61,015 bases of DNA from a virus, in IMG/VR virus record IMGVR_UViG_3300033064_003747, positions 1-61,015 of that record. One strand, 5' to 3'. The notes beneath the pieces are model-generated. The model saw only the letters and a program-made list of their open reading frames with translations, was not told where the DNA came from and made no database searches. The position numbers were made by a program, and so were the translations under genes. The number at the start of each line of letters is the position of its first letter. The first letter of the stretch is position 1. Of this stretch, positions 3,807 through 42,409 are shown piece after piece.

Positions 3807-3807
3807 T

Positions 3808-4011
3808 TTAGCTTTTCCAATTTATGTCATAATTATCAGATATTACGATTTCTACATCTATGGTTGGATCAATAAAAGTATTTGCATCAATACACTTTGC
3901 TCTGGCATTAAGGTCTTTAATCCATATTTTGTGCTCTTCAAGACCTTTTACAACCTCTTTGAAAAATGCCAATACATCATTTTGGTTAGCAATACTTGGG
4001 ATTTTTATCAT
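3808..4011 (-). CDS. Small protein, copy 1 of a tandem duplicate pair
   Basis: A 67-residue protein resembling the product of the next gene upstream (4013-4201). Shared features in the same order are an Phe/Leu-rich helix followed by KG, the segment K(I/V)WI, then ISDNY and INWK at the C-terminus. The copies have diverged elsewhere. Its last codons (Asn-Trp-Lys, AATTGGAAA) contain the GGAAA that serves as ribosome site for the SbcC gene. No known family. Confidence 0.65.
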   Translation of the reverse strand: MIKIPSIANQNDVLAFFKEVVKGLEEHKIWIKDLNARAKCIDANTFIDPTIDVEIVISDNYDINWKS

Positions 4012-4012
4012 T

Positions 4013-4201
4013 TTATTTCCAATTTATGTGATAATTATCAGATATTGCAAATTCTACTTCTATGCCACAAGTAGAGTGCTCTAATCCTCCACCAGCACTT
4101 CTTATCCATACCTTGCCTTCTTTAACTCCTTTTGTAATTTCTCTAAGAAACGACAGAGCTTCTTTCTGATCCGCAGGTTTTGGAGTTCTAATAAGATTCA
4201 T
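4013..4201 (-). CDS. Small protein, copy 2 of a tandem duplicate pair
   Basis: A 62-residue protein, paralogous to the product of 3808-4011 (common KG...K(V/I)WI, ISDNY and INWK elements). It overlaps the RMF-like gene upstream by ATGA. As in its copy, the terminal Asn-Trp-Lys codons double as the ribosome site of the following gene. Function unknown; the pair may form a dimer or a small beta-rich fold. Confidence 0.65.
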   Translation of the reverse strand: MNLIRTPKPADQKEALSFLREITKGVKEGKVWIRSAGGGLEHSTCGIEVEFAISDNYHINWK

Positions 4202-4380
4202 TTCTTCTTCTTTGCATACTCCTTTCTTTTTTTCATTTGTTTAATCTCGTCTTCGTAGCCTATCCACCAATCAGCAAATGCTTGTGAGTCTGGTGGATAG
4301 GGACAACCACGATCTCCATCTCTCGCTGCTCTTCGTCCTGCTTTTGAAGTAATCTCTGCGAATTTTTTAACCTTTTTCAT
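4198..4380 (-). CDS. RMF/CrpP-like small basic protein
   Basis: A 60-residue protein whose centre (GRRAARDGDRGCPYPPD, then WWIGYEDE) has the Gly-Arg..Cys-Pro-Tyr..Trp..Gly-Trp/Tyr pattern of the ribosome modulation factor family, which also includes CrpP-type proteins. RMF itself binds 30S ribosomes and dimerises them in stationary phase. The Lys-rich tail fits RNA or ribosome binding. ATGA overlaps join it to the RuvC-like gene and to the duplicated small gene. Role in the phage unknown; a translation-modifying function is an inference. Confidence 0.6.
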   Translation of the reverse strand: MKKVKKFAEITSKAGRRAARDGDRGCPYPPDSQAFADWWIGYEDEIKQMKKRKEYAKKKK

Positions 4381-4826
4381 CTGAACATTTTCCTTTCTAT
4401 TGCCAGTCGTCGTGCGTACTCTGCTATGAGTAAAGCATCAGCTATGGCATGGGTTACTTTTATGTTTGGAAACAGTTTCTGAGCAGCAGCTTTTGTTATG
4501 TTTTTATCTCCTCCTGTTCTACATTTCATTACTTTCTGCCAAGACATAGGTGTTACATACTCATGTGGTATAGCAGCATAAGCAAGTATCATTCTTGAAC
4601 AACCATATGACATTCCAAACTTAAAGCTGGAAGCAACTCCCTGTCCGGGCATAGAATGAACCCTCTCTATAACAGCGAATGTAACATCTGCTGAGAATTC
4701 TGAAAACCAGTTGGCTTGGTCTGTGAGTGTTTCTTTACCTTTTATATAGCTTACAAATGTTCCTTCTCTGTCAATTACAACACTTGCTCCTGATATTCCT
4801 GGATCAATTCCTAAGAAAAAGTACAT
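4377..4826 (-). CDS. ruvC: RuvC-like Holliday junction resolvase
   Basis: A 149-residue RNase H-fold nuclease of the RuvC type. It shows GIDPG at residues 6-10 (first catalytic Asp, D8), a second acidic site in AVIERVHSMPGQG, and the C-terminal acidic pair in HAIADALLIAEYA. Phage versions cut branched recombination intermediates or clean up DNA before packaging. The ATG at 4826 follows GAAAGGAAG. It sits at the head of the group leading to the SbcCD genes, consistent with recombination. Confidence 0.85.
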   Translation of the reverse strand: MYFFLGIDPGISGASVVIDREGTFVSYIKGKETLTDQANWFSEFSADVTFAVIERVHSMPGQGVASSFKFGMSYGCSRMILAYAAIPHEYVTPMSWQKVMKCRTGGDKNITKAAAQKLFPNIKVTHAIADALLIAEYARRLAIERKMFR

Positions 4827-11238: not shown

Positions 11239-12581
11239 TTTATTTCCTCCTTTTCATACCAACTTTTGTTTATTGGGGCTATTTCTATTTCTACTTCTAA
11301 AGGAACGATGATCCAATCCCATTCCTTTCGTATGTCTTTACACATGATTTGTTTGACCTTTGGAATAACAATATCTCTTTCCTCTGGATCAAGGTCAAAT
11401 ACAATAGAGTCATGAATTTGTCCTATTATACGAGTATTTAATTTTTCTTCTTTTAACCATTTGTTTATCTGAATCAAAGACCAAAGAAGACAATGAAATG
11501 CAGAGCCTTGTACTGGATAGTTAATGACATCGTTTCTTTTCATTAACCCACTGCAACGAAACCCTGTCAATGTATCAAGGTAGCCTTGTTCTAAGTATTG
11601 ATTATAGAACTCATCCTTCCATGCAGTATATACAGGGAATCTTTTGTACCAGAAGTTTCTCTCTATTCTTTTGATATGATTTTCAAATTTCTTATAAGAA
11701 ACCATCCCTTGTTCTTTCAGGTGTTGCTTCAAAGGAGTCCCTTGTTTTGTTATCAATTTCAATTCTTTAGTAGCTTTCCAAAGATGTTCTGCACAACTTA
11801 TATAGTAATCACCATAGAACTCTGGAAATACAAACATGTTCTTTCCACAATATCGTATTTCTTTTGTGATTTGGTTTTTATTGAGAATATAACATTCCAT
11901 TGCCATGTCTCGATGGAGATCTTTTGTAGAATCTTGGATGTATGATATCATAGTGGGATCTTGGTGGTAGCAAGCAGAAACACGGATTTCCGCACCGTCG
12001 TAATCTACCTCCATTAATTGATGCCCTTCTCTGGGAATAAATATTGTCCGAATCAATTTCTTTATCTTAGGATCTCGTACAGGAATGTTCTGAAAGTTTG
12101 GTTTGTCCGAAGAACTTCTATAAGTTTTTACAGTGTGAAGATTGAAAGAAGGGCGAATGTACCCATCACATTCAAACCTGACAATTCCATCTAAGTATGT
12201 GTTCTTAGCTTTATTCAGTTTACGCAGTTCAAGAAGATCCTTAACCATAGGAATATCTAACATTCCTAAAGCCTCTTGATCAACAGAAGACTTTCCAGTA
12301 GGAGTCAGCTTAGGAGCCTTATACCCCATATAATTAAACAATACTTCTCCTAATTGATGATTAGAATCCATATTGAATTTATTCTTATAAATAGATTTCC
12401 ACTTTTTTACTTCCTCACTCTCTTCTATTATGATTCTTTTCTTGCGAATTCGCTTTGTCAGCTTAATCTCCTGTTTCTTACAATATTCTTTATCAATACG
12501 AATACCATTAGCTTCTATGTCAGCCAAAGCTAAAGTTCCATCGTGCATTAATTGATATGCATCTATAGTTGAGAGGCTCAT
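11235..12581 (-). CDS. polA: Family A DNA polymerase, polymerase domain only
   Basis: A 448-residue protein covering only the polymerase part of PolA. Motif A is DYDGAEIRVSA (canonical catalytic Asp and steric-gate Glu kept), motif B is KEIRYCGKNMFVFPEFYG (Arg, Lys, Phe and Tyr-Gly kept), and motif C is QIHDSIVFDLD, in which the usual HDE is HDS. No 3'-5' exonuclease domain is present; that lies in the adjacent gene, fused to a uracil-DNA glycosylase. ATGA overlaps on both sides tie it to those neighbours. It is the phage replicative polymerase. Confidence 0.9.
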   Translation of the reverse strand: MSLSTIDAYQLMHDGTLALADIEANGIRIDKEYCKKQEIKLTKRIRKKRIIIEESEEVKKWKSIYKNKFNMDSNHQLGEVLFNYMGYKAPKLTPTGKSSVDQEALGMLDIPMVKDLLELRKLNKAKNTYLDGIVRFECDGYIRPSFNLHTVKTYRSSSDKPNFQNIPVRDPKIKKLIRTIFIPREGHQLMEVDYDGAEIRVSACYHQDPTMISYIQDSTKDLHRDMAMECYILNKNQITKEIRYCGKNMFVFPEFYGDYYISCAEHLWKATKELKLITKQGTPLKQHLKEQGMVSYKKFENHIKRIERNFWYKRFPVYTAWKDEFYNQYLEQGYLDTLTGFRCSGLMKRNDVINYPVQGSAFHCLLWSLIQINKWLKEEKLNTRIIGQIHDSIVFDLDPEERDIVIPKVKQIMCKDIRKEWDWIIVPLEVEIEIAPINKSWYEKEEIK

Positions 12582-13789
12582 GTTCTTTCCTTCATCTCTC
12601 TTATCTGTTTATTCGCTAACCTGAATTCATACAAAGCATCAAGTGCCACATAAGGAAGCAGGTCTTCCAATGGACATTCATCTATTCTGTTAAGCCCATT
12701 AATATCTTTTGGATCAACCAACCGGAAGTAAGGTTTGATATGGGATGAGTAATCTGTCACACCAAAGTTTGCATAGACTTGAAAGTCTAATGATGTTATC
12801 TTTGGTCTATTATCAAGGATGTGTGCGGCTTGCATAGTATCCCACTTCCATCCAACAACATCACACTCCAAACAAGCCTTGCTCCAAGCATGTTCAAACT
12901 TGATGTTAGCGGCATACTTATGTATCTTTGGGTGTTTCAAGACTTTACACAACATCTTTTTGTTTTCATCTTTGAGGGGGAATGCTGTTACTCTGTTTTT
13001 ACTGTAAGCAATAGCACAGGCTACAATCCTATGTCCTTTGGAAACATAGGGTTTTAGTCCTGTTGTTTCATAATCAATTGCAATATTCAATGGAGCTTTC
13101 ACTAACAACCAGTGTAGGAACCTATCTATTTGTTTGGGATCTGTTGTTATCCTGACACATTCCCTCTCATCTCTGTAAAGTGGGATTATTTCACTGTTCT
13201 TTATTAGAGACAGTGCTTGTTTAAGATCCTGTTCAAATATTAATTCTGCTACATCTTCAGTGGTGTGTCGTTGGACATAGCTGGGATGATAGGTAGGACA
13301 GACCCAAGCATTCACTTCTCTATCAGGAATAATGAGCCCTCTCCATTTAGTGATACCCCCCAACTTACCCTTCCAACGGTGTCCAAGAAAGGACTGTAAA
13401 GCTGTGCCACCAAGAAGGATAATCAACTTTGGTTTTGATTTCTCTATCTCTGTGAATACTTTTACTCGACAAGCTCCTATTTCCTTATCTGTAGGAGTCC
13501 TATTTCCTGGAGGACGGCAACATACAGCGTTCGTCTTTCTACAATCCTCATCCAGATCGTAGCCTAATAGTTTTAATTTCTTTCTAAAGAACTGCCCTGC
13601 CTTCCCAACCAATTGAGTATTCTCTTCATCTTCAACTCCACCCGGAGCTTCTGCCACAATAAGAATACCCTTCTTCCCTTTTCCTGTAACTCGCATCTTG
13701 GGGGATTGACATAGAAGATAGAGTCCACAAGAAGAGCATAGTGGGCGTGATTTTTTGTTACGACTTGGAAAGAATCCTCTTTTCAACAT
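12578..13789 (-). CDS. Family 4 uracil-DNA glycosylase fused to 3'-5' exonuclease
   Basis: A 403-residue two-domain protein. Residues 1-200 are a family 4 glycosylase: C18, C21, C91 and C107 as likely 4Fe-4S ligands, the EAPGGVEDE motif, the CRPPGNRTP stretch and the TYHPSYV motif. Residues 225-403 are a DnaQ/PolA-type proofreading domain (IAIDYETTG, NIKFEHAW, ALDALYEF). Together with the separate polymerase gene this gives a replicase in which base-excision and proofreading activities share a chain. It overlaps the polymerase gene by ATGA, so the products are made together. Confidence 0.87.
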   Translation of the reverse strand: MLKRGFFPSRNKKSRPLCSSCGLYLLCQSPKMRVTGKGKKGILIVAEAPGGVEDEENTQLVGKAGQFFRKKLKLLGYDLDEDCRKTNAVCCRPPGNRTPTDKEIGACRVKVFTEIEKSKPKLIILLGGTALQSFLGHRWKGKLGGITKWRGLIIPDREVNAWVCPTYHPSYVQRHTTEDVAELIFEQDLKQALSLIKNSEIIPLYRDERECVRITTDPKQIDRFLHWLLVKAPLNIAIDYETTGLKPYVSKGHRIVACAIAYSKNRVTAFPLKDENKKMLCKVLKHPKIHKYAANIKFEHAWSKACLECDVVGWKWDTMQAAHILDNRPKITSLDFQVYANFGVTDYSSHIKPYFRLVDPKDINGLNRIDECPLEDLLPYVALDALYEFRLANKQIREMKERT

Positions 13790-14820
13790 TATACCGCCAT
13801 GTATTTTTTGTATTGGTTATTTCTGGTGGGGAAAAGTTTGTTCTTTAAGAGTTTATTCCATGCTGCTTGTCTTTCCCATTTTCTTAATCGTGGTTTAGTC
13901 AAGGTATCAACACATGCTGCCCTCTTTATGTACTTAACATCCTCCTCTGTAGGTAATGGTAATGTCTTCTTACCCATTCTATCAGGCAAAAGACCAACTC
14001 TATGTCCACGTGAATTACAACCATAGCAAGGTCGGAATGTTCTTAAGCCATTGTATAGAAACCTTCTCGCTGTCATGAATCTTTCATTCTGCCACACTTC
14101 TTCTGCTGACCTTGTTAGAATATTTCCACAGTAGTATTCGCCCCTCCAGTCATTGCAACACAGGACAACTTTACCATCGAACCTGACAGGAAATTCGCGG
14201 AATGGTCGGGGACATCTCTTGCCTATGTATCCATAATCTGGAGGGGCTGCAATTGCCGCCATATTATTACATATTCTTATTTTATAATCAGCCTTTTTGA
14301 TATCTCTAAAGAAGATTATGATATGTTTCTTTATTCCTATTCTTGAGTAGGGGTTGATCCCATCATCTGGATATCTATATACATTTTCAAATTCATACTT
14401 GATCCTTGGATATATTTGATTATATATATTTGCATGAGAGTATTCTTCAATTGCAAGTATGTTCACATACTTCATCAGTTCTTTTATTTTACTGACTGTA
14501 TTCTTTACCAGTCCACCACCATTAGTAGTGAGTAGGATCTGGTTTTCGCTAAGTCTTTCCCTAAAGATAGAAACTATTTCTAAGAGATTTGGATTCATAG
14601 TATCTTCTCCACGAATTCCAAATTCTATCTTTGAGTTCCACCCTGTTTTCTTAAGATTGTCAGCTATGGTTTTTGCCATGTCAACGGTTAGGAAAGAATA
14701 CTGTCCCTTCTTCACATCTATCCCATTGATACCACAAAAACTGCAACTCAAATTACAGCCTTGAGTGAGCTCTAACTTCAGTGTGTTAGGTTGATCTTGT
14801 CGAGTGATTGTTCTTTTCAT
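13789..14820 (-). CDS. Radical SAM enzyme with SPASM-like C-terminal Cys cluster
   Basis: A 343-residue protein. The radical SAM 4Fe-4S site is C22-x3-C26-x2-C29 (GCNLSCSFCG). A C-terminal Cys-rich region (KRCPRPF, then DGKVVLCCNDW, YYCGN, CYGCNSRG) looks like a SPASM/twitch domain holding extra clusters. The substrate is not known. It starts MKRT like several other genes here. It lies between the glycosylase/exonuclease gene (TAATG overlap) and the glycosyltransferase gene (ATGA), so it is expressed with the replication genes and could modify nucleotides, DNA or a peptide. Confidence 0.82.
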   Translation of the reverse strand: MKRTITRQDQPNTLKLELTQGCNLSCSFCGINGIDVKKGQYSFLTVDMAKTIADNLKKTGWNSKIEFGIRGEDTMNPNLLEIVSIFRERLSENQILLTTNGGGLVKNTVSKIKELMKYVNILAIEEYSHANIYNQIYPRIKYEFENVYRYPDDGINPYSRIGIKKHIIIFFRDIKKADYKIRICNNMAAIAAPPDYGYIGKRCPRPFREFPVRFDGKVVLCCNDWRGEYYCGNILTRSAEEVWQNERFMTARRFLYNGLRTFRPCYGCNSRGHRVGLLPDRMGKKTLPLPTEEDVKYIKRAACVDTLTKPRLRKWERQAAWNKLLKNKLFPTRNNQYKKYMAV

Positions 14821-15659
14821 AAGAATTTAGAGATTCCTCTTTTAGGTTTTCTTATTCCAAATCGGTATGCTTTCTTCCAATGAACAATAACATCTGTTCT
14901 TGTGATAAATCCATCTTTGTCTTTCTTAAAGCCTATCCAGCTACCTTTTGTCTTCTTCTCTTTTACAGTTACAAACATAGGATGTTTTTGCTTTAAGAAC
15001 AAGGCACTTCGTTTCTGTATCTCCTGTGTGCGGTACAGGGAACATCCCCCTTCGGCATTTGAACCAGAATCACTCTGGGCATATTTGTACAGGACTCTGT
15101 TCTTGTGTCCTTTTTCTAAGAAACAAAGATTCATATGAAAATCTTCCATTACAAACGTATCAATAGGATCAAACACTGCCCCTACTTTATTGAACACCTC
15201 TTTGTTTACAGCATAGCAACGAGTTACTCTCGTTATGTCAGTGTGATCTTCTGGAACTCTGTTGTTCCCCATACGGCAACTTATACCGACTATGGGTATA
15301 TTTTGCATTGTCAAGTGGAAGGTGACTTCTCTTAACATGCTTTCCATTCGGGAAGGTGTCGATCTTTTTAACTTTCCATTCAGCGTCCGTGTGTGAAAAA
15401 CAAGGTCATCATCCATAAAGAATATGAAATCATCCTTTGCATTTTCCATAACCCATTGCCGCTGAGATGGTAGGCACTGCGGAACATCTTTGGGTATTGC
15501 TAATATAGGAAACGTATTAGCAGTTCTATAATTCTGAACCTGATCATGTGGAACAACAATACAGGCAAACTTTCGCCAACGGTCAGGCATCTGTTCGGTT
15601 GTGATTATTTTTTTATCTGCTCTGTGAGAGGAGTTAATGAATATTGCTATAGTTCTCAT
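14817..15659 (-). CDS. Glycosyltransferase-like protein (GT-A fold) in the replication operon
   Basis: A 280-residue protein with a GT-A layout: an N-terminal Rossmann-like half, then RQWVMENAKDDFIFFMDDDL, where the DDD is the likely metal and nucleotide-sugar site, followed by VGISCRMGNN and VMEDFHMNLCFLEKG. It resembles the family of phage transferases that have been proposed to add sugars to modified DNA bases, but I cannot separate these from protein or lipid glycosyltransferases by eye. It is coupled by ATGA to radical SAM genes on both sides. Confidence 0.68.
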   Translation of the reverse strand: MRTIAIFINSSHRADKKIITTEQMPDRWRKFACIVVPHDQVQNYRTANTFPILAIPKDVPQCLPSQRQWVMENAKDDFIFFMDDDLVFHTRTLNGKLKRSTPSRMESMLREVTFHLTMQNIPIVGISCRMGNNRVPEDHTDITRVTRCYAVNKEVFNKVGAVFDPIDTFVMEDFHMNLCFLEKGHKNRVLYKYAQSDSGSNAEGGCSLYRTQEIQKRSALFLKQKHPMFVTVKEKKTKGSWIGFKKDKDGFITRTDVIVHWKKAYRFGIRKPKRGISKFL

Positions 15660-17059
15660 CTTGTTAAGTCAATCCCTTCTTTTTTCCAAGTTTCTTCATA
15701 TTCCATTGGATTGTATTCGAATATCAAGTTTCCTTCCTCATCTAATACTTTCAAAGGTAATATCTTCCCATGAAAGTAGTTACGAGGATTGGAATACCCA
15801 TTAAGATTATTCCATTTCTCTTGAAGCAGATCCCTTGCAGTAACATTTGATTTGTAAGCCATTGGAGTATTCACTGTAGCAACATGGTCTATGCCAAAGG
15901 TAGAACATGTCAGGTATGAAGGTTCAGCAGGATAGATATCATTAAAGTAGAACTTTTTGATTATACCTTCCTTATGGAAGAGGCGTCTTGCTTCTTTTAT
16001 ATGATATGTAAATTGGTTTCTTGTCCAGTTCTCTAACCCTCGATTTTCAGGGTAGCTGTCCGGCATTGCACAGCACGAGCCACTTGTATTTAACTCTTTG
16101 AAATCAGGATCACTTATGCCACAGACAAGTCCGTGTTTTGCACAGAATTTATATATTGTTTTAGCATAAGGTTCTTTTACCATCCGATTCAACCGCATGT
16201 ATCCACCACGCTCCGATGGACTTAGTGTTCTATAATATTTCTTTATATCAGGGATATCCATAACTTTTTCTAACCATGCATATCTGTTTTTGGCAACAGT
16301 ATTAGCTCTGGAATCCATAGCAAAGAATTCTGTGCTTACCCCCTTGATGCCTGCTTGTAAACCCCTCTCTAACAATTCATCTAAATCAATATCTGTGATT
16401 CCAATTAAGAATGGACGCAACCGTAGGATAGTCCAATATCCCATGTCACTTAATATTTTGATAGCTTCCAACCGTTTAGTAGGAGAAGGCACGCCCACTT
16501 CTATAGATTTCGCTATCTTATCATTACCTGTAACCAAACTGACTTGAAACGCAAAGTTTTTTTGCTTTGAAGACTGCTCTAACAGATTCATGTATTCCTT
16601 GTCAAGGAATGTGTTGCCTTTGAAACTGAACAGGGTGGGATAATTTTCTTCTGCCAGAGCCTCCATTAGTTTTAGACCCATCTTGTTCTTTTGTTCAAAA
16701 TTACAGAATGGATCAGCAAGACCACCCCAATGTAAAAGAAACTTCTTACTGTAGAACCACTTATACATTTCTTGGCTTCTCTTATTTGTGGGATGCCCTT
16801 TTATGTCCTTAATCATTCCTTCAATATTAACTGACTTTAGTTCGTTATTAAATAATGGATTACAACTCTTTGAGAAATATGCAAAGCAATATAAGCATCC
16901 TAACGAGCAGTAGTTGTATTGATCAAAGGTCAGGGGCATGGAGCAGTCCATAACCTCGTTGGAAAGTCTTGGAGAACCGTACCTTTTCTTAGAGAGCTTT
17001 CTTCTGGTGTTTTCTCCTAACCATTCGATTGCTTTTTCGGTCTCGGAGATGTTTGGCAT
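15656..17059 (-). CDS. Radical SAM enzyme, spore photoproduct lyase-like
   Basis: A 467-residue protein with C51-x3-C55-x2-C58 (YCSLGCLYCFA), then the segment LLHWGGLADPFCNFEQKN, reminiscent of the conserved Asp-Pro region in spore photoproduct lyase relatives, and a C-terminal Cys-containing region (SGSCCAMPD, YLTCSTFG). SPL repairs thymine dimers; relatives act on other substrates. It starts behind a strong GGGAGG site inside the end of the upstream gene (71-base overlap). With the glycosyltransferase and second radical SAM gene it forms a coupled cassette. Confidence 0.75.
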   Translation of the reverse strand: MPNISETEKAIEWLGENTRRKLSKKRYGSPRLSNEVMDCSMPLTFDQYNYCSLGCLYCFAYFSKSCNPLFNNELKSVNIEGMIKDIKGHPTNKRSQEMYKWFYSKKFLLHWGGLADPFCNFEQKNKMGLKLMEALAEENYPTLFSFKGNTFLDKEYMNLLEQSSKQKNFAFQVSLVTGNDKIAKSIEVGVPSPTKRLEAIKILSDMGYWTILRLRPFLIGITDIDLDELLERGLQAGIKGVSTEFFAMDSRANTVAKNRYAWLEKVMDIPDIKKYYRTLSPSERGGYMRLNRMVKEPYAKTIYKFCAKHGLVCGISDPDFKELNTSGSCCAMPDSYPENRGLENWTRNQFTYHIKEARRLFHKEGIIKKFYFNDIYPAEPSYLTCSTFGIDHVATVNTPMAYKSNVTARDLLQEKWNNLNGYSNPRNYFHGKILPLKVLDEEGNLIFEYNPMEYEETWKKEGIDLTR

Positions 17060-32802: not shown

Positions 32803-32858
32803 CGTTCTGTTCCTTTCAATTTTGGTTTATTTCACTAACGTATATTTCACTGTTATAT

Positions 32859-32880
32859 TTCGCTGACGTGTTTTCGCTGT
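32859..32880 (-). repeat. 22-base direct repeat, copy 1 (TTCGCT...TTTTCGCTGT)
   Basis: The 22 bases here differ by one base from those at 33490-33511. Both contain TTCGCT, then ACGTG, then TTTTCGCTGT, and both lie 55-100 bases upstream of a leftward gene (32802 and 33413). Degenerate TTTCACTAACG and TTTCACTGT units directly precede this copy. Candidate operator or promoter element. Confidence 0.55.
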
Positions 32881-33028
32881 CGGCTTTATGCCGTTGATTT
32901 TATACTGCGATTTTCGTGCTTGTGATTTCGGTTACAGTATAGTTTTTTGTGATTTGTAGATAAACAACTTTGTGATATACTGATAGATAGATTTCGTGAT
33001 TTGGTTTTTTGCAAAATAGATTTTAATT

Positions 33029-33056
33029 GTATGCTACAAGATTAGTTGTAGCATAC
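33029..33056 (-). terminator. Hairpin downstream of a stop codon (GTATGCTACAA stem)
   Basis: GTATGCTACAA (33029-33039) pairs perfectly with TTGTAGCATAC (33046-33056) with loop GATTAG, 12 bases after the stop of 33069-33413. The outer flanks (GCAAAATAG..TTTTAATT and TGTTAAA.CCT) are shared with the hairpin at 33738-33770, whose stem is unrelated. Confidence 0.65.
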
Positions 33057-33068
33057 TGTTAAATCCTA

Positions 33069-33413
33069 TTAATAAGGTTTGAAGTTTTTTTGCGCGTTTA
33101 TGACCACAAATAAACTGGCTTCAATTAGCATAAGCTGTTCGGCAGACAGTTCGATTTTGCCTTCCCATGTATCGGGTGCTTGCCCATCACTTAATTCGGG
33201 TGGACCATTGCAGGTGAACACGCCATTATTGTCGATGATATCGGCAAAAAACAAATCAGTTATACCGACTGCCGTATAGGTGTTTTGGCAGTGATATAGG
33301 TTTTTATCGACACAATCGACTTCGATCTGCCAGTTTTTGCCTATTGTGATAGGCATTACTGGCGGCACTAATCCTGTTGGCAGTGCTTTTTGTAGTTTTT
33401 TTGCGTTTGACAT
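33069..33413 (-). CDS. Hypothetical protein
   Basis: A 114-residue protein, probably beta-rich (MPITIGKNWQIEVDCVDKNL, then YTAVGITDLFFADIIDNNGV), ending in a helix (IELSAEQLMLIEASLFVVIN). The start follows AAAGGTAG. No family recognised. Base use begins to shift here towards that of the odd region further right. Confidence 0.5.
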   Translation of the reverse strand: MSNAKKLQKALPTGLVPPVMPITIGKNWQIEVDCVDKNLYHCQNTYTAVGITDLFFADIIDNNGVFTCNGPPELSDGQAPDTWEGKIELSAEQLMLIEASLFVVINAQKNFKPY

Positions 33414-33447
33414 TGTGCTACCTTTCGATTTTTGGTTTGTTACATTT

Positions 33448-33545
33448 TTCGCTATTGAATATTCGCTATTGAATATTCGCTATTGAATATTCGCTAACGT
33501 GTTTTCGCTGTTGAACTAAATTTCGCTGCTTTTCGCTATTTCGCT
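33448..33545. repeat. TTCGCT array with 14-base tandem repeats
   Basis: Unit TTCGCTATTGAATA occurs three times in tandem at 33448-33489, then a partial copy starts at 33490. TTCGCT recurs eight times within about 100 bases. The 367-base gap 33414-33780 also has repeated TTTGTGATTT words. It separates two leftward genes and may be a regulatory or origin-like region. Confidence 0.7.
33490..33511 (-). repeat. 22-base direct repeat, copy 2
   Basis: Second copy of the element at 32859-32880, with one mismatch. It lies 77-98 bases upstream of the 33069-33413 start. Read leftward it contains ACAGCGAAAACACGT. Same relative position as copy 1, so probably a shared control site. Confidence 0.55.
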
Positions 33546-33737
33546 GTTGAACCAACATTTGCTGATTTTGTTGGTTTTGCCGATTTTGCCGAATTTACGG
33601 ATTTGTAAATTTTCGTAAAATTTTTGTGATTTGGCAAATCGTGTGCAAAATTATACATTATACGATTTTCGATAATGTAATTTTGTTTTACTTTTTTGTG
33701 ATTTTGTTTTTGCTTTTAGGCAAAATAGGATTTAATT

Positions 33738-33770
33738 TATACCGCAAAGTTTTTTATGCTTTGCGGTATA
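33738..33770 (-). terminator. Hairpin downstream of a stop codon (TATACCGCAAAG stem)
   Basis: TATACCGCAAAG (33738-33749) pairs perfectly with CTTTGCGGTATA (33759-33770), loop of 9 bases, 10 bases after the stop of 33781-34260. Flanks match those of the 33029-33056 hairpin (GCAAAATAGGATTTAATT; TGTTAAACCT) while the stem sequence is unrelated. Confidence 0.65.
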
Positions 33771-33780
33771 TTGTTAAACC

Positions 33781-34260
33781 TTATTTTTTATCGGTTGCGA
33801 TTTCGGCGGTATCGGCGGCGGTTTTCGGCGATACCAAATGTAATTTACTGCCGCGATATTCGGCAATTTTTGCATGCAGCATAAATTTGGTAATTCGGCG
33901 AACAACCGATTTTTGTCGATTTAAGCCCGCGTTTGCATATTTCGGTTTATCGGGATTTTTTTCGATAAACCGTTTTTGCGTTGCCGTTGTTAGTGCCGCA
34001 AAATCGATACCGCCATTTTTCGTGGTATCGGCTATGCAATCGTAAACTGCATAGTCGCGTTCGTATCGGGTCGATACGTTCGCCGATTTTGTGTTTTGCT
34101 TTTGTTGGTAAGCCTTAAAAGCAGCATATTCGGCGGCGGTAACTTCGACATTTTCGGCGGTAGGCTGTGCGGTAGGCTGTGCGGTAGGCTGTGCCTTGCG
34201 ATCGGTTTCGATTTTTGCTTTTAACTGCGATTCGGTTTGTGTGTTTTTGTTTTTCGACAT
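33781..34260 (-). CDS. Hypothetical basic protein with AQPT repeats and extreme codon context
   Basis: A 159-residue Lys/Ala/Thr-rich protein (MSKNKNTQTESQLKAKIETD) with three AQPT repeats (12-base DNA repeat near 34158-34197), a spacer and a C-terminal part (KYANAGLNRQKSVVRRITKF) that may be a small helical, nucleic-acid-binding domain. It starts at 34260 behind AAAAGGTTAG. Every GA in the coding strand (26 by my count) is preceded by C, and all but one TC is followed by G. Asp and Glu codons therefore always follow a codon ending in C, and AGA, GGA, TCT and TCA are absent. Confidence 0.65.
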   Translation of the reverse strand: MSKNKNTQTESQLKAKIETDRKAQPTAQPTAQPTAENVEVTAAEYAAFKAYQQKQNTKSANVSTRYERDYAVYDCIADTTKNGGIDFAALTTATQKRFIEKNPDKPKYANAGLNRQKSVVRRITKFMLHAKIAEYRGSKLHLVSPKTAADTAEIATDKK

Positions 34261-34324
34261 TGTACTAACCTTTTGATTGTAATTATACCGCGCGTTATTA
34301 CGCGACATTTTTTAACTGCAATTT

Positions 34325-34355
34325 GTATAGTGCAAGTAAAAAACCTGCACTATAC
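34325..34355. repeat. Hairpin GTATAGTGCA / TGCACTATAC
   Basis: GTATAGTGCA (34325-34334) and TGCACTATAC (34346-34355) form a perfect 10-bp stem with an 11-base loop, 65 bases upstream of the 33781-34260 start. It resembles the post-stop hairpins further left but no gene ends here; it could be the remnant of a lost unit, an operator, or a leader structure. Confidence 0.55.
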
Positions 34356-34958
34356 TTTTGCAATTAAAACCATTAAAAAGGTGTAAAACAACTGTAACTT
34401 ATTTAACACTATTAATAAATTTTAACTATTAAAATTTATATGGTAAACTTGTGTTACATAGTTTTTTACGCATTAAACATTTTAAAAATTATGCTTTATA
34501 ATACACTGCAATATTATAAACCTTACCAGTTTTTACGCGTTAAATTACTAATATATGCTATACAAATTTACCGCTTAAAAAGCCGATATACCATAAGTTT
34601 TTTAACCTGTATTGTATAAATTTTAATAGTTAAATTTATACGATTATGGTTTTATAATCGGTTATAAACTTGTAATTAAAAGCATATGCTTTTATTTAAC
34701 GTTTATTTAACTGTATGCGAAAAAACTTTTATTATGCCGTTATTAATGTTATCGGCATAATCGAAAAAAACTTTAACTTTTTTACTGCCACCATTATAAC
34801 AAAGTTTATGTTTATAAGCAATATTAAAATATTTATAACTTATACAATGTTTATAAAGTATTGCTATATAGTAACTTATAAAAAGCATTTTATTTGTAAA
34901 AAATGCATTGCTATTTACAACAAATAATGCTATGGTACGCGCTTTTGTAAAGCCTTGT

Positions 34959-34975
34959 GTTATAACATGTTACAA
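34959..34975. repeat. Palindromic repeat GTTATAACATGTTACAA, copy 1
   Basis: First of three copies of the near-palindrome TATAACATGTTA in the divergence region (others at 35125 and 35215). Symmetry suggests a dimeric protein site. Confidence 0.55.
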
Positions 34976-35124
34976 CCTAAATGCTAAAAAAACTAATAGC
35001 TATAAGTTTATAGGCATTATATGTTTATATGGTATAAAACCTGTCGCGCGGCGATATTTACCGATACCATATAACGCGATAAAAAGTATGCTATGCTATA
35101 AAATATACAGCTATAAATCGTTGC

Positions 35125-35140
35125 GTTATAACATGTTACA
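35125..35140. repeat. Palindromic repeat GTTATAACATGTTACA, copy 2
   Basis: Second copy of the TATAACATGTTA palindrome, 166 bases after the first, with the same orientation of flanking GT and CA. Confidence 0.55.
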
Positions 35141-35214
35141 TAATACAGTATAATGGCAGGTATAAACATATTAAGCTATAATTAAAACGCGTTACGCGCC
35201 GAATATGGGCGTTT

Positions 35215-35233
35215 TATTATAACATGTTATATA
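35215..35233. repeat. Palindromic repeat TATAACATGTTATA, copy 3
   Basis: Third and most symmetrical copy, about 90 bases after the second, at the right edge of the odd-composition segment. Confidence 0.55.
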
Positions 35234-36225
35234 CCATATACTTACAACATATCATATACTATAAAGCAATATTAAGCTCCATAATTAATAAAGTAGTAAG
35301 CTCATCAATAATTAATAATGGTGTAATATCATATGGTATTAATAATAAGGTAAATCCCTCTGTTATTAACAAAGTAGTAATAAGCTCTATAATTAATCAT
35401 GTAATTAATCTATCTCTTATTATCATTGTAGTAATAAGTCATATCATTTGTGTTATAGTATGTTCATATATCATAGTAGTATAACGGCATATCTTTTTTA
35501 TTATCTTACTGTATATCGGTATAGCTAAAATCATGCATAGTAAGGGGGATAGCATACGTTCTAAGGCTATATTATAGCTTAATCATAGGTGGGCGAGGGC
35601 AAAACACCTTAATCAGCAAAACAAAAGGGATTTATATACCTTGCCATTGGATTTTTATTATAGGGCGTTACAAGGGATTTATGGTACGTTGCCGGGGATT
35701 ACAACTATGCTACCGATACCGACCCCCAAAGTCATTTAGCAAAATGTAATCGACCGTTTGGGTTTTATATTTTGGTGTGAAATGCCCATTATATTACCAG
35801 AGGAAATATGGATTGATCAACCCTTTCTGTGATCACACTCCTCCTACACTGTATTGGCCTTACCCCCTTGAATACTATAAAGATCATAAGATCATTTACC
35901 TGTATATTACTATAATAGAACCCTCTACTGAGTTACTGAGCCAATTGAGTATTAATACTACCCCCTAACCCTTTCATAGTGAACTTAGATTGGTCTGTGA
36001 GACTCTTAATAGGAGCTATTACTGTATTGTGTACCATTAATAGGGTTTAAGCTCTGTATGAACAAGAGATCACTATATTATTTTCATACCTAATTTACTA
36101 ATATGACGAATTGAAAAATTTAAGAGAAGAAATAAAAGAGCAAGAAAGATCTTTACAGAAAATGTGAATGAGAGTATGAATTAATATAATGAAGATGATC
36201 AAGTGCCAAGATTGAGGTTATGAAT

Positions 36226-36732
36226 ATGAAGAGAACCAAAGATAAGATTGAAAAGGGGTATAAGAGGAAGACCTCTCCTTATAATGAGAATTTAGTGTAT
36301 AAGGGGAAGTATAATAAGAATACCTTCCCTGATCTTGTAAAGACATTTGCTCAACAAGGGCTTACAGATGCTGAAATAGCAAGGAAGTTGGGTATATCAT
36401 TATCTACGTTCTATATTTATAGAAGGAAATATCCTAAATTCGCCAAGTCATTAACCGCAGGGAAAGAACCTGTTGATATTGAAGTTGAACAAGCTCTGTT
36501 CAAGAGAGCTATGGGGAGAGAAATTCCCATTGAAGAAGTGACTGAAGTTACGAGTGCAACAGGAAATGTCACAAAGACTGTGAAGAAGTATAAGAAGTAT
36601 TATTTAGGGGACACCATTGCTCAGATATTCTGGTTGAAGAATCGTCAACCTGAGAGGTGGAGAGATAAGATTGATCATGGAGTGTCGGGTGATATTATTA
36701 TTAATGTCGATAAAAATGATAAGAAATACTAA
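36226..36732 (+). CDS. terS: Terminase small subunit
   Basis: A 168-residue protein with a helix-turn-helix (LTDAEIARKLGISLSTFYIY) followed by a helical oligomerisation part and the C-terminal segment DTIAQIFWLKNRQPERWRDK typical of phage small terminases. It recognises the packaging site and recruits the large subunit. The second of two ATGs (36226, MKRTKDK) has correct distance to GAGG. First rightward gene; its stop overlaps the large terminase start (TAATG). Confidence 0.87.
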   Translation: MKRTKDKIEKGYKRKTSPYNENLVYKGKYNKNTFPDLVKTFAQQGLTDAEIARKLGISLSTFYIYRRKYPKFAKSLTAGKEPVDIEVEQALFKRAMGREIPIEEVTEVTSATGNVTKTVKKYKKYYLGDTIAQIFWLKNRQPERWRDKIDHGVSGDIIINVDKNDKKY

Positions 36733-38000
36733 TGTTCCAAAAGAAGTTCAAAAAGACTCCCAAACAGCTTGAAGCAGATAAACTACTGACTTCTAAAACA
36801 GCCGTTCATATCATGTTTGATGGAGGTAGCCGTTCAGGAAAGACCTTTCTACTCATAAGAGCAATCATTATAAGAGCGTTGAAAGCGGCAGGTAGCCGTC
36901 ATGTGGCTCTTAGGAAGCACTTCGCCAGCATTAAGAGATCTGTTTGGTATGACACCCTCCCTAAAGTTCTTGATCTTTGTTTCAAAGAAGTTCCTGTTGA
37001 AATGAATAAGTCTGATTGGTTTATAAGGTTTCCCAATAAAAGTGAAGTATGGTTTGGCGGATTAGATGAGAAACAGCGCACAGAAAAGATCTTTGGAAAT
37101 GAATATAGTACCATGTTCTTCAATGAAGCCTCTGAACTTGATTATGAGAGTGTAAGTAATGGTCTTACAAGGTTAGCGCAGAAGACTTCACTAAAGAACA
37201 GAGTATATTATGATTGTAACCCTCCCGGAAAGAAACACTGGTTGTATAAGGTGTTCTTCCAACATCTTAATCCACTGACTAATGTTGAAATAAATAAAGA
37301 ACTGTATGCACGTCTTCAAATGAATCCGTTTGATAATAAGTCTAATCTTCCTGAAGGCTATATGGAAGAGATTCTTGCTAACCTTCCTGAAAGAAAAAGA
37401 AAACGATTCTTAGATGGTGAATGGTTAGACGATGTAGAAGGTGCTCTATGGAACCGAGATACTATGATAAATCCTTATAGAGTTACCCTTGCAAGCTGCC
37501 CAGAACTCGTTAGAATATTGATAGGAGTTGACCCTGCTGTTTCTACTAAAATTACTTCTTCTGATACAGGTATTGTTTCAGTAGGGATGTCTAAAAATAA
37601 ACATTTCTATGTACAAAGAGATAGCACAGTGAAAGGAAGCCCATTAGAATGGGCAAATATAGTCAATAACCTTTATGGTGAACTCTCAGCGGACAAAGTA
37701 ATTGGAGAATCTAACCAAGGAGGTGATCTTGTAGAAGCGAACCTCAGACATGTCAATCCTCTCATAAGTTACAAATCAGTTCACGCTACGAGAGGCAAGA
37801 TAAAACGTGCCGAGCCGATAGCTAATCTTTACGAACAAGGGAGAGTTCACCATATTGGTATGTTTCCAGATTTAGAAGATGAGTTATGTAGTTATAATCC
37901 AGAAAATGAAGAAAATGACGAAAGCCCCAACAGATTAGACGCTCTTGTATGGGCTATGACTGAATTGGCTGGTATAGGTAAGTCAGCCGGAGTTTGGTAG
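36732..38000 (+). CDS. terL: Terminase large subunit
   Basis: A 422-residue packaging motor. ATPase: Walker A GGSRSGKT (31-38), Walker B and catalytic Glu in STMFFNEASELDY. Nuclease: IGVDPAVSTKITSSDTG with the first catalytic Asp, IGESNQGGDLVE, and a final acidic site in SPNRLDALVWAM. It cuts concatemeric DNA and pumps it into the prohead through the portal. Length is normal. Confidence 0.92.
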   Translation: MFQKKFKKTPKQLEADKLLTSKTAVHIMFDGGSRSGKTFLLIRAIIIRALKAAGSRHVALRKHFASIKRSVWYDTLPKVLDLCFKEVPVEMNKSDWFIRFPNKSEVWFGGLDEKQRTEKIFGNEYSTMFFNEASELDYESVSNGLTRLAQKTSLKNRVYYDCNPPGKKHWLYKVFFQHLNPLTNVEINKELYARLQMNPFDNKSNLPEGYMEEILANLPERKRKRFLDGEWLDDVEGALWNRDTMINPYRVTLASCPELVRILIGVDPAVSTKITSSDTGIVSVGMSKNKHFYVQRDSTVKGSPLEWANIVNNLYGELSADKVIGESNQGGDLVEANLRHVNPLISYKSVHATRGKIKRAEPIANLYEQGRVHHIGMFPDLEDELCSYNPENEENDESPNRLDALVWAMTELAGIGKSAGVW

Positions 38001-38264: not shown

Positions 38265-39679
38265 AAAGAACCATCTCTCCAAATAATGGCAATGGCAAAA
38301 GCAAAATGAAAGCTCTTGTTGAGTTTCAAAATTTAGCAACTGCTATGATTGAAAGATCAAGATTGGCTGGTAGACTTGGAAAGTCATTTGGTACTACCAA
38401 TGATGATCGTGAATTATATACAGCTTTGGGATATCCTCTTACTTTGGACTTTGAAAGATTCCAAATGAGGTATAGAAGGCAGGACATTGCTAAACGAATT
38501 GTTGATGCCTATCCCAATGCTACTTGGAGTATCCCTCCTACTGTTTATGAAACAGAGTCTAATACTGATGAAACCCCCTTTGAAAAGAGTTGGAATGCCT
38601 TACTTGAGCAATTGAGGGTATTTTATTATATGCTCAGAATTGATAAAGTTGCTGGTATAGGTCAGTACGCCTGTCTGTTTCTTGGTTTTAATGATGGCAG
38701 AGACTTTAGCAAGCCTGTTAAAAAAGCAGATAAACTTTTATATCTAAAGACTTATGATGAAAGTGAAGTTCAAATAGGAGATCTTGTAACGGATACCTCA
38801 AGCCCAAGATATGGTCTTCCTGAGAGTTATAGACTACAAATGGTGACTGAACCAGGAGGAATAGAAACTACTGTTCACCACACTCGTGTTCTTCATGTTG
38901 CAGACGATACGGACGACTCTGATATATATGGTGTACCAAGACTTGAAGTAGTTTACAATAGACTTATGAACTTGGAAATGCTATCAGGTGGTTCTGCTGA
39001 AATGTTTTGGCGAGGAGCTTTTCCTGGATATGCTTTCGAGATGCCAGCCGATGTAACCTTGTCTGATGCTGATAAAACAGCAATGGGTGATCAGATAGAA
39101 GAGTATTTTCACAAACTCAATAGATATCTTAGACTTAAAGGTATAGAAACAAAACAACTGTCTCCTCAAGTGTCTTCTCCAAAAGAGCATATAGATATTC
39201 AGTATAGAGCAATTGCTGGAGCTACTGGTATTCCTCTTAGAATATTGACTGGAAGTGAAAGAGGTGAGTTAGCAAGTTCGCAAGATAGGAGCAACTGGGA
39301 GACCAGAGTCAACGAGCGTAGGAACAATTTCGCCGAGCCTGTTATGCTCAGGCCATTTGTTGATAGACTTATTGAAGCTGGAGTTCTTACTGCTCCAAAA
39401 GATAAGTATCTTATTAAATGGCCTGATGTAGAAGCTATGACTGAAAGAGAACGTGTTGATATTGCTGATAAGAAATCAGATGCCATACGAAAATATGCTT
39501 CTGCTCCTGGAGCCGAATATGTTGTTCCTGTGGGTTACTTCAGAACTAAGGTTCTCGGCTTCTCTCAAGAAGAGAGTGATAAAATGGATGACAGTGTTAA
39601 ATCAGATATAGAAGATGAAGTAAATGACACAGTAGTAGTTGAACCAGTAGTTAAACCAAAAGAGAAAAAAGATGAATAG
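38261..39679 (+). CDS. Portal protein (DUF1073-type)
   Basis: A 472-residue portal. ELYTALGYPLTLDFERFQMR, then YRRQDIAKRIVDAYPNATW and the later SGGSAEMFWRGAFPG and GIPLRILTGSERGELASSQD match the DUF1073 portal family. Portals form the 12-fold ring through which DNA enters the head. The start (MKRTISPNNG) follows GGGAGAAAC. Acidic C-terminal tail. Directly follows terminase, precedes the MuF gene. Confidence 0.86.
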   Translation: MKRTISPNNGNGKSKMKALVEFQNLATAMIERSRLAGRLGKSFGTTNDDRELYTALGYPLTLDFERFQMRYRRQDIAKRIVDAYPNATWSIPPTVYETESNTDETPFEKSWNALLEQLRVFYYMLRIDKVAGIGQYACLFLGFNDGRDFSKPVKKADKLLYLKTYDESEVQIGDLVTDTSSPRYGLPESYRLQMVTEPGGIETTVHHTRVLHVADDTDDSDIYGVPRLEVVYNRLMNLEMLSGGSAEMFWRGAFPGYAFEMPADVTLSDADKTAMGDQIEEYFHKLNRYLRLKGIETKQLSPQVSSPKEHIDIQYRAIAGATGIPLRILTGSERGELASSQDRSNWETRVNERRNNFAEPVMLRPFVDRLIEAGVLTAPKDKYLIKWPDVEAMTERERVDIADKKSDAIRKYASAPGAEYVVPVGYFRTKVLGFSQEESDKMDDSVKSDIEDEVNDTVVVEPVVKPKEKKDE

Positions 39680-39791
39680 AGAAATAAGCATTGAAGTATT
39701 TATACTGATTCAGATTGCTATTCTTATATTTTCAGTTGGTGTGGGTTACTTTTTTAGAAATAGAGTATTAAGACGAAGGAGTAGAAGATGA
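39672..39791 (+). CDS. 39-residue single-pass membrane protein
   Basis: Short frame MNREISIEVFILIQIAILIF, continuing with further hydrophobic residues and ending in the basic tail RRRSRR. It starts 8 bases inside the portal gene and its TGA overlaps the next ATG (ATGA). The membrane helix (about 9-27) with a positive tail, and the tight coupling on both sides, support it as a real gene. Function unknown. Confidence 0.55.
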   Translation: MNREISIEVFILIQIAILIFSVGVGYFFRNRVLRRRSRR

Positions 39792-40117
39792 CAGTAGTAA
39801 CAGGAAATAATTCGACTGTAAGCAAGATCATAAAAGCTCTTGGTCTGCCAGAACGAACAGTGGATTTCAAAATTAATTTTCCACTGAATGATGTGGTGAC
39901 AGTAGACTGTAGTTATTATCCGAGTGGGGAAGGTATGGAAGAGTTAGGTGCTATTATTAAGAAATACAAATTAGTGACAGAAGAGATAGAAGAAATGGAG
40001 GAGATTAAGGAGAATATGGTAGATAAAGGAGGGATTAATGTAAGACCAACAATTCCTCCTCCATCTCCTCCTAAAGGTCAAGGAAAGTATAATGTTAGCG
40101 ACAAAACAGCGAAATAA
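39788..40117 (+). CDS. Hypothetical protein between portal and MuF genes
   Basis: A 109-residue protein with a beta-alpha N-terminal domain (RTVDFKINFPLNDVVTVDCS), an acidic helix (EEIEEMEEIKENM) and a Pro-rich end (RPTIPPPSPPKGQG). Its pattern recurs in phage head operons but has no assigned role. Coupled to the 39-residue gene upstream; overlaps the MuF gene by 26 bases. Confidence 0.55.
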   Translation: MTVVTGNNSTVSKIIKALGLPERTVDFKINFPLNDVVTVDCSYYPSGEGMEELGAIIKKYKLVTEEIEEMEEIKENMVDKGGINVRPTIPPPSPPKGQGKYNVSDKTAK

Positions 40118-41099
40118 GCCGTCTTTATTAGGCTCTAAGGTAGTTTACCCTATAAATAGCCATTCAGACTGTAATAGGGACTGTCTAAGATCAAATAGGG
40201 CGTATAGCTACGACCCTACGAGGACTCTTTCGCTGAGAAAGGCTTGGGTTGCGGACTTTAATCGTAGATTTAAGAAGATTAGGTCGTTGATTTGGGAAGC
40301 CATTGTAGTAGATGATGTTTTTGGGTTACTGCCAAGACCTCATACTTTAGCTCTTCCAAAAAGAGTTTATGAATTTAGAACTTCTCGTGAAAAAGTTGAT
40401 GAGTTTATGGTTTGGCTTCAAAGGCAAGTTGATGATGAAGTCTTAGGAGTTTCATTTGGAGATCCGAGAGATTTCACTGGAGCTCCACACTGGAATGATA
40501 TGTATATTGATTCATCATACAAACAAGGAATAAGAAGAGCAAATGCCGAACTGAAGAAAGTTGGTATAATGCCAGACTTTCCAATAGCTCCTGCTCTTGC
40601 TGCTGAAATAGCATTTAATAGACCTATCCATGCTGATAGAGTTGGTTTGCTGTACACCAGAGCTTATAATGAGCTTAAAGGTGTTACTGATGCTATGGCT
40701 CAGCAAATGAGCAGAGTTCTTGCTCAAGGAATGGCGGAAGGTAAAAGTCCACGAGTAATGGCTCGTGAGTTAATGCATCGAATAGAAAAAGTTGGTGACT
40801 TAGCTACTACTGATGCTCTTGGTAGATTTATTCCTGCTGCTCAAAGGGCTCGGATGATAGCAAGAACAGAAATTGTCCGTGCGCATCATGTAGCAACTAT
40901 AAATACTTATAGGGAAGCTGGTGTTGAAGGAGTACGAGTTCTCGCTGAATGGACGACTGCTGGTGATGATAGAGTTTGTACAAGATGCTTAGAGATGGAA
41001 GGTAGAATATTCACTCTGGATGAAATAGAACCAATGATTCCACTTCATCCACAGTGTAGATGTGTTGCAATTCCAGCAGAAATTAAGGTGATGAAGTGA
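40092..41099 (+). CDS. MuF-like minor head protein (SPP1 gp7 family)
   Basis: A 335-residue protein. The C-terminal domain has RMIARTEIVRAHHVATINTY, then TTAGDDRVCTRCLEMEGRIF and PLHPQCRCVAIPAE, the Mu F / SPP1 gp7 signature with its Cys pair and the CRC motif. Such proteins bind the portal and are packaged inside the head. The start follows AAGGAAAG. It is the last gene before the glycan block. Confidence 0.86.
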   Translation: MLATKQRNKPSLLGSKVVYPINSHSDCNRDCLRSNRAYSYDPTRTLSLRKAWVADFNRRFKKIRSLIWEAIVVDDVFGLLPRPHTLALPKRVYEFRTSREKVDEFMVWLQRQVDDEVLGVSFGDPRDFTGAPHWNDMYIDSSYKQGIRRANAELKKVGIMPDFPIAPALAAEIAFNRPIHADRVGLLYTRAYNELKGVTDAMAQQMSRVLAQGMAEGKSPRVMARELMHRIEKVGDLATTDALGRFIPAAQRARMIARTEIVRAHHVATINTYREAGVEGVRVLAEWTTAGDDRVCTRCLEMEGRIFTLDEIEPMIPLHPQCRCVAIPAEIKVMK

Positions 41100-42409
41100 T
41101 AAAATTAGTAGTGCCTATGTACAACGTGGGATTATTCTTTTCACATGGGATGCAGTCCTTGAGTGCTGGTTTGGTAGAGTGTGGGATAGAGCATTCTGTT
41201 TATACCATAGAAGATGATAGTGTTCCAATAGAGAAGACAGTTTCAGAGATACTGGCTGATAATCCAAAAGCAGTTTGTTTCACTTCTACTTCATTTGAGT
41301 TCGATTTTATTAATAAACTTGCTGGTGCTATTTCTAAGAAGTCAGATTGTACGCTTGTGCTTGGTGGTGTTCACGCTATTATGAATTCATTATCAATATT
41401 GGACTCTAATTTTCATTACTACTGTATCTGTGAAGCAGAGATGGTATTTCCTCGGTTTTGCTTGCATTTAGAAAAGTACAAGGAACCGCCTTCGCTAATG
41501 GCTGGATTTTTGAATAAATATAGAGCAATGCCTTTTGGTTTGGTATGGGAAGCCTTAGTGCCAGAGAATTTGGATATAGACCTTCCAGATTATTCAAGAG
41601 GTCTGCTTCCTCTTACAGAAATATTAGATGAACGTGATGGTTGGTTAAGCGTGTTGGTTTCAAGAGGCTGTCCCTACAATTGTAGCTTCTGTGCCAATTC
41701 AATTTTAAGAAAGACTTTCTCTGGATATCACTTCTGTAGAAAAATGTCTCCGTATAAAGCGATTGAGCATATATTGAGATTACTTTCTAAGTTGGGCGAC
41801 GTTAAAATGATAAATTTTGATGATGATAATTTACTGTCTGATATAAATTGGTTGCGAGTGTTCTTGAAATTGTATAGTGAACATATCTATTCAAAGACAG
41901 GTATAGGATTTGTATGTAATGGAAAAGCCTCTCATGTTAATTATCAAAGTGTTCAGTGGCTTGGAGAAGCTGGTTGTTATGAACTTCAAATGTCTGTTGA
42001 AACTGGAAATGAAGAAGTTAGGAATAAAATTCTTGGCAAAAGACTGACTGATGCTCAGCTTGAACAGGCTTTCACTACTTGCTATGATTATGGACTGAGA
42101 ACATTGGCATATGTTATGCATGGTGTTCCATTTACATCTAATGGAGATTGTGAAAAGACAGCAGAATTGGTAAAACTGTTGCGTCCTACCTTAGTTCGTG
42201 ATACTTATTGCTATCCTTTCAGAGGGAGTCGTCTCAGAGAGCTATGTGATGAAGCTAATATAAAGGTAGAGATTCCTGATGGTTGTTATTTCAATGAGCC
42301 AGCTATCAAGGGACATATGGGAGAAAAGCAAAAGTTTAGAAGGCTTATTGAAAGTGATTATGAAATGTTTACTGGTAATACAGATTATTTGGTGAAAAAG
42401 AATGTATAA
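41096..42409 (+). CDS. Radical SAM enzyme with B12-binding-like N-terminal domain
   Basis: A 437-residue protein. Residues 1-130 form a B12-binding-like Rossmann domain (AVCFTSTSFEFDFINKL, CTLVLGGVHAIMN) without a clear DxHxxG. Radical SAM site: C192-x3-C196-x2-C199 (GCPYNCSFCAN), followed by MINFDDDNLLSD and LQMSVETGNEEVRNKILGKR. Family members methylate or rearrange unactivated carbons. It starts with GTG overlapping the MuF stop (GTGA). First gene of the 41-47.7 kb glycan block, so a sugar or peptide substrate is likely. Confidence 0.82.
   Translation: MIKLVVPMYNVGLFFSHGMQSLSAGLVECGIEHSVYTIEDDSVPIEKTVSEILADNPKAVCFTSTSFEFDFINKLAGAISKKSDCTLVLGGVHAIMNSLSILDSNFHYYCICEAEMVFPRFCLHLEKYKEPPSLMAGFLNKYRAMPFGLVWEALVPENLDIDLPDYSRGLLPLTEILDERDGWLSVLVSRGCPYNCSFCANSILRKTFSGYHFCRKMSPYKAIEHILRLLSKLGDVKMINFDDDNLLSDINWLRVFLKLYSEHIYSKTGIGFVCNGKASHVNYQSVQWLGEAGCYELQMSVETGNEEVRNKILGKRLTDAQLEQAFTTCYDYGLRTLAYVMHGVPFTSNGDCEKTAELVKLLRPTLVRDTYCYPFRGSRLRELCDEANIKVEIPDGCYFNEPAIKGHMGEKQKFRRLIESDYEMFTGNTDYLVKKNV

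Follow-up and report, generated by a model that had tools for sequence, protein, structure and literature searches.

Why should a phage keep two three-letter words out of one stretch of about 2 kb, on both strands and through coding and non-coding DNA alike, when the same words occur at normal counts elsewhere in its sequence? The window, by which we mean the whole stretch of DNA analysed, is a 61,015-b IMG/VR phage contig (IMGVR_UViG_3300033064_003747) whose leftward arm (1-34 kb) carries replication genes and whose rightward arm (36-61 kb) carries terS, terL, portal, capsid and tape measure genes; the locus in question lies between them. An earlier note had described GA there as occurring only within CGA and TC only within TCG, and its counts agree with ours: nine GA, all CGA, and five TC, all TCG, in 34277-35251, and, on the coding (minus) strand of the gene at 33781-34260, 26 of 26 GA as CGA and 15 of 16 TC as TCG. 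Over 33781-35251 as a whole, TC is followed by G in 31 of 31 cases (background 9.8%, P = 6e-32) and GA is preceded by C in 24 of 26 (background 9.0%, P = 2.5e-23).

The words lost are TCH and DGA, where H is any base but G and D any base but C. Together they occur twice in 33781-35251, against 35.2 ± 3.3 in dinucleotide-preserving shuffles (minimum 25, n = 200), 134 ± 9 in mononucleotide shuffles and a minimum of 143 in any 1,471-b window elsewhere in the contig, so that the shuffle comparison and window scan proposed in the earlier note place the depletion far beyond what composition gives. The longest TCH-free run spans 1,880 b (33372-35252; next-longest 217); for DGA the longest is 1,273 b (34274-35547; next 321 and 260, the 321 adjoining it). 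In the core, TCH/(TCH+TTH) is 0/127, compared with a background of 0.41. The depletion is confined to TCH and DGA, with ACH, CCH and GCH near background; CpG is elevated in all contexts, and TCG is enriched, not merely spared. A second contig (L005, IMGVR_UViG_3300032731_001114), identical to the window and starting at about window position 34496, carries the right half with the same pattern. The observation is real, and bigger than first described.

The limits of the zone (Table 1) differ by word and strand. On the plus strand TCH is rare from about 32.86 kb and its absence ends sharply at 35252, whereas DGA is rare from about 33.73 kb to between 35547 and 35.7 kb; the two exceptions to the ban, GGA at 33953 and TGA at 34274, both lie before the core. 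The edges are thus strand-specific, 32.86-33.73 kb lacking TCH only and 35252-35.55 kb lacking DGA only. A leftward fade and an abrupt end at 35252, as first reported, hold for TCH on the plus strand; they do not hold for DGA, which runs on to about 35.55-35.7 kb. Tandem repeats at the left edge (32828-32880 and 33446-33515) read TTCACT outside the purged part and TTCGCT inside it, and so preserve a small trace of how TCA was escaped by A-to-G change. GC skew and gene direction both change sign across 33000-36000, as at a bidirectional origin or divergent promoters. A promoter scan of the zone gave no enrichment over shuffles, and Rfam and tRNA scans gave no match.

Table 1. Features of the window discussed in the text
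Feature	Position	Strand	Remark
Zone without DGA/TCH, both strands	33730..35546	.	core complete at 34275-35251
Left flank	32860..33729	+	TCH strongly depleted on plus, fading leftwards; DGA not depleted
Right flank	35252..35546	+	DGA absent on plus, TCH present; sharp TCH edge at 35252
Gene inside zone	33781..34260	-	159 aa; longer frame to 34308; low-confidence structure model
Non-coding stretch in which the near-palindrome TAACATGTTA occurs three times	34961..35231	.	copies at about 34962, 35128 and 35219
Terminase small subunit-like gene (HTH)	36220..36732	+	opens right arm
Terminase large subunit	36732..38000	+	in relatives, the zone is just upstream of the counterpart
Radical SAM protein of the Rv2578c/PA0069 kind, spore-photoproduct-lyase-like	15656..17059	-	candidate base-modifying enzyme, also in G001
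TET-associated glycosyltransferase (TAGT)	14817..15659	-	PF20691, phrog_842; candidate DNA-base glycosyltransferase
Radical SAM/SPASM protein	13789..14820	-	adjoins the TAGT and SPL-like radical SAM genes

Comparison with related phages, also called for in the earlier note, uncovered zones at the same locus that ban different words. We scanned full contigs of relatives, most of them metagenomic fragments, for any depleted word; as words and window sizes were searched exhaustively, scores weaker than about -11 are to be ignored. The relative G001 (71,842 b), found through a capsid search (capsid 65%, replication and structural modules syntenic with the window), has, between its left arm and terS, 1,647 b without any GA or TC at 54% GC (log10E -97). 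Beside terS of G048, GC is missing for almost 2 kb and in the core GT/AC has all but gone (GY 5 versus 82 in 900 b), and beside terS of G003, CA/TG is down to 47 versus 179 in 1,400 b; the best depletion score in the rest of each of these two genomes lies between -7 and -16. A TerL search yielded 80 TerL-centred loci of relatives, with a median best depletion score of -6.35. Fifteen of them fall below -11 (-11 to -98), and in all 15 the depleted window lies upstream of TerL. In L367 (= G063), GA, TC, GG and CC are all at zero over 2,376 b with a sharp end (log10E -178), and L360 has five AC/GT in 2,520 b; further strong outliers are L324 (= G065; GT/AC), L347 (CA), L322 (= G066; DGA/TCH) and L319 and L320 (GGR). 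The ban therefore reads DGA/TCH in the window, GA/TC in G001, GR/YC in G063, GY/RC in G048, GT/AC in L360 and G065 and CA/TG in G003. A zone at this locus is not universal among relatives: in the same scan it was absent or only weak in G002, G041, G043, G044, G046, G049, G051, G053 and G029, and no strong zone appeared in the known modified phages CAjan, 9g and Brevundimonas phage MaInes.

The short palindromic repeats also differ by zone: TAACATGTTA in the window, TTGGAATTTTCCAA in G048 and GTTTAACC/GGTTAAAC in G001, where about 18 copies lie in the zone (38663-40730) and a PAPS-reductase-like gene (GFSGGKDST) occupies its right edge (40829-41479). Between zone and terS, L360 (6401-7600), G048 (23.4-24.3 kb) and L324 (6801-7400) have a second stretch free of GC in which AC/GT is present, as if a second, different ban adjoined the first.

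Proteins encoded within the zones bear the cost of the ban. In the window's zone gene, synonymous codons are fitted to it, in line with the selective purge through coding and non-coding DNA proposed earlier: a GAN codon, always Asp or Glu, follows NNC in 17 of 17 cases, compared with 61 of 670 (9%) in fourteen other left-arm genes, and serine is written TCG or AGT, arginine CGN and glycine GGC or GGT, with AGA and GGA codons absent. A single-sequence model of its product is poor (pLDDT 51; helices and a C-terminal beta hairpin), and a homology search with it returned no match, including none to the relatives' zone genes. In those relatives, whole amino acids have gone: the G001 zone gene has neither D nor E, the G048 zone gene has no A, T or C residue (0 GC, 1 GT, 0 AC), and in the L367 zone the open frames do without D, E, G, P and W. 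L324 has a homologue of the G048 zone gene as its own zone gene (E 2e-12). G048 also has a paralogue of its zone gene beyond the zone, at a distance of 3 kb (43% over 56 aa, E 8e-14), and this copy is normal, with 11 GC, 17 GT and 17 AC, and 6 A, 9 T and 12 V, so the ban is local and not a property of the genes. Selection acts on DNA words, as seen in the NNC preceding every GAN codon, the loss of amino acids in zone genes and the contrast with this paralogue.

What would make one locus intolerant of a word that the rest of the genome uses freely? We give a probability of about 0.5 to the reading, drawn from sequence comparison, that the zone is a control locus under selection to lack the word that the phage's own DNA-modifying enzyme targets. 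The control locus, reaching from the leftward early arm to terS, would consist of a small gene and a non-coding part of about 1 to 1.3 kb that holds palindromic repeats. With its two- or three-letter target word purged, it would escape the modification placed on the rest of the genome and remain ordinary DNA, and host RNA polymerase, a replication initiator or a packaging start protein could bind and open it. The banned word would differ between relatives because the modifying enzyme, and hence its word, differs. Three things here are inferred: the identity of banned and modification word, the lack of modification of the zone in virions, and the reason for it. The reading is the simplest one and covers the size of the word, its symmetry, its change between relatives, the confinement to a single locus and the cost to proteins.

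The modification genes of the relatives bear on this. Four zone phages, G048, G063, G065 and G066, encode DpdA and FolE in the same contig, and their bans all consist of G and its 3' neighbour (GY, GR, GT and GA, respectively), the pattern to be expected if the enzyme replaces G and recognises the base that follows. The bans of G063 and G048, GR and GY, are exact complements, and the DpdA proteins of G048 and G065 are 59% identical, with both zones losing GT and, beside it, GC. DpdA acts with QueC/D/E and FolE in 7-deazaguanine modification, known from Queuovirinae such as CAjan and 9g, which is dinucleotide-specific (GA); the title of Olsen 2023, as cited in PMC11008142, ties dPreQ0 modification to a single GA motif. 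Unlike the four zone phages, CAjan and 9g themselves lack a zone, which counts against the modification reading. DpdA does not imply a zone, since G041, G043, G074 and G077 carry it without a strong zone and the zone of G050 is only weak. In the window, which is a fragment, and in G001, neither tblastn with CAjan, 9g and MaInes proteins nor PF01227 gave a DpdA or FolE match.

Thymine and cytosine hypermodification offers words like those banned here, at TG/TC for the 5hmdU kinase (PMC6449724) and GC for the phage enzyme CmoX (PMC12783734), alongside TET-associated glycosyltransferases; the papers on these systems that we found describe no local exclusion zone. The window carries a TAGT glycosyltransferase and an SPL-like radical SAM protein; 5hmdU kinase, TET and CmoX were not found in it. 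The TAGT gene passes the PF20691 cut-off (60.4 bits versus 27.5; phrog_842 E 7e-35). The radical SAM protein has a CX3CX2C cysteine motif, invariant in 20 homologues, and NCBIfam matches to the spore photoproduct lyase/Rv2578c family; its fold matches spore photoproduct lyase among others (4fhc; Foldseek E 1.8e-4, TM 0.52 by target), although other radical SAM folds score alike, and its identity to SPL is only 13%, far below family cut-offs. The window and G001 have this protein and the TC/GA word in common, and we would guess that it acts with the TAGT glycosyltransferase as the window's own modifying enzyme. The pair is present also in phages without a zone: as a sufficient cause, radical SAM was rejected on about 16 other carriers that lack one, G017 and G019 alone having their genome-lowest GA/TC upstream of terL. 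In these two, otherwise distant phages with the same radical SAM protein, the ratio falls to 0.50 (G017, 15000-16200) and 0.73 just upstream of terS/terL. The set of SPL-like radical SAM, TAGT and radical SAM/SPASM genes recurs in G014-G018, G020-G022 and many IMG/VR phages and is a candidate for a new base-hypermodification pathway. Beside the window's DNA polymerase I gene, a uracil-DNA glycosylase domain is fused to a 3'-5' exonuclease domain (12578-13789).

Other modifying enzymes were tried and set aside. The window and G001 gave no match to cytosine C5-methyltransferases or to the thymidylate synthase family; a CpG-sparing C5-methyltransferase was dismissed on the absence of PF00145 matches in the window, G001 and G048, and the thymidylate synthase family as a source of 5hmdU on matches that are weak in G003 and otherwise present in G047. 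An N6/N4 methyltransferase does not serve as the common cause, being present in G001, G003, G065, G067 and non-zone phages and absent in G000, G048 and G063. G003, with its CA/TG ban, carries ThyX, such a methyltransferase and an HhH-glycosylase/thymidylate-synthase-like protein. This last (3896-4762, plus strand; HhH-GPD glycosylase-like N part, thymidylate-synthase-like C part), with ThyX and dCMP deaminase as neighbours, is a possible thymine hypermodification gene.

Our figure stays at 0.5 because the modification reading, itself built on inferred modification, does not account for the strand-specific flanks of the window, which are not repeated in G001, nor for the DpdA phages without a zone or the window's own enzyme. 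The flanks matter for the alternatives. Avoidance of a short site was rightly among the causes listed at the outset, and restriction-site avoidance by phages likewise removes short words selectively, down to synonymous codon choice; it acts genome-wide on host sites of four to six letters, whereas here two to three letters are lost from one locus of about 2 kb and counts elsewhere are normal. A version confined to one locus would have the zone purged of the word recognised by a sequence-specific nickase or nuclease, encoded by the phage for host DNA breakdown or belonging to host defence, with only this locus exposed, for example by entering first or by being present as a single strand at genome ends or the origin. 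Three-letter words are known for enzymes such as Nt.CviPII (CCD), and strict two- or three-letter bans, possibly even the strand-specific flanks, would follow, while the adjoining terS/terL would suit genome ends. We nevertheless consider it unlikely: no candidate dinucleotide nuclease was found, the word would need to change with every relative, and the modification systems present in several zone phages already fit. Flanks of this kind also prompted the idea of a collapsed terminal repeat with 5'-end resection, which the relatives' GC-rich zones and changing words oppose.

A replication rule strikes us as quite improbable, although it would account for the window's flanks. The zone would be a bidirectional origin without the start word of primase, or a similar enzyme, so that no primers form near the origin, and the flanks would lack the word only on the lagging-strand template. 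Primase start words have two to three letters, GC skew changes sign across the zone and DGA is absent in both window flanks on the would-be lagging-strand template; yet G001 differs in its flank asymmetry, the primase genes of relatives with and without a zone share about 40% identity, and no origin known to us excludes primer sites in such a way. Both outward RNAs of the window are free of DGA for their first 1.5 to 2 kb, as would be seen if zone transcripts avoided the target word of an RNA-binding protein or of a ribonuclease that cuts at a specific triplet. This is very unlikely, as the core bans both orientations, the bans of relatives are symmetric (in L367, all four words are at zero) and each change of word would need a new ribonuclease. 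A mutational scar is already largely refuted. A TC-context deaminase acting on exposed single strands at ends or origin, sparing CpG as the earlier note had suggested among possible causes, would remove TCH, leave TCG and give strand-specific flanks, but TCG is enriched in the window, whose repeats show TTCGCT and not TTTACT, the G001 zone lacks TC and GA at 54% GC, other relatives ban AC/GT, GR or CA, and whole amino acids are lost; the footprint of an APOBEC-like enzyme, C-to-T at the word with a rise in A+T, was not found. A further early suggestion, import from a genome with such rules, is unlikely for a ban that stays at one locus and changes its word from phage to phage.

Whatever the mechanism, two-letter words are under very strong selection within a defined 2 kb. 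Like the earlier note, which knew of no such phage region, we found no description of a locus that bans dinucleotides until proteins lose up to five amino acids (L367), with the word varying by relative, in a limited search of the open-access literature, and precedent in subscription journals is possible. Were the modification reading true, the word missing from a zone would give the sequence specificity of phage DNA-modification enzymes straight from metagenomes, the zone would mark where phage DNA must remain unmodified for transcription, replication or packaging to start, and the continued use of host proteins by base-modified phages would have an explanation open to test. More tentatively, and at somewhat less than an even chance, a widespread group of tailed phages may keep an unmodified island of 1 to 2.5 kb beside the packaging genes, in which the exact word of the phage's own enzyme is banned on both strands and even within genes, the ban is rewritten with enzyme specificity and the missing word reads out the modification motif from sequence alone. 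Strong local depletions away from a recognised terL also occur, of AAG/CTT in G043 (2100-4100) and of BAG/CTV in G026 (34400-35600).
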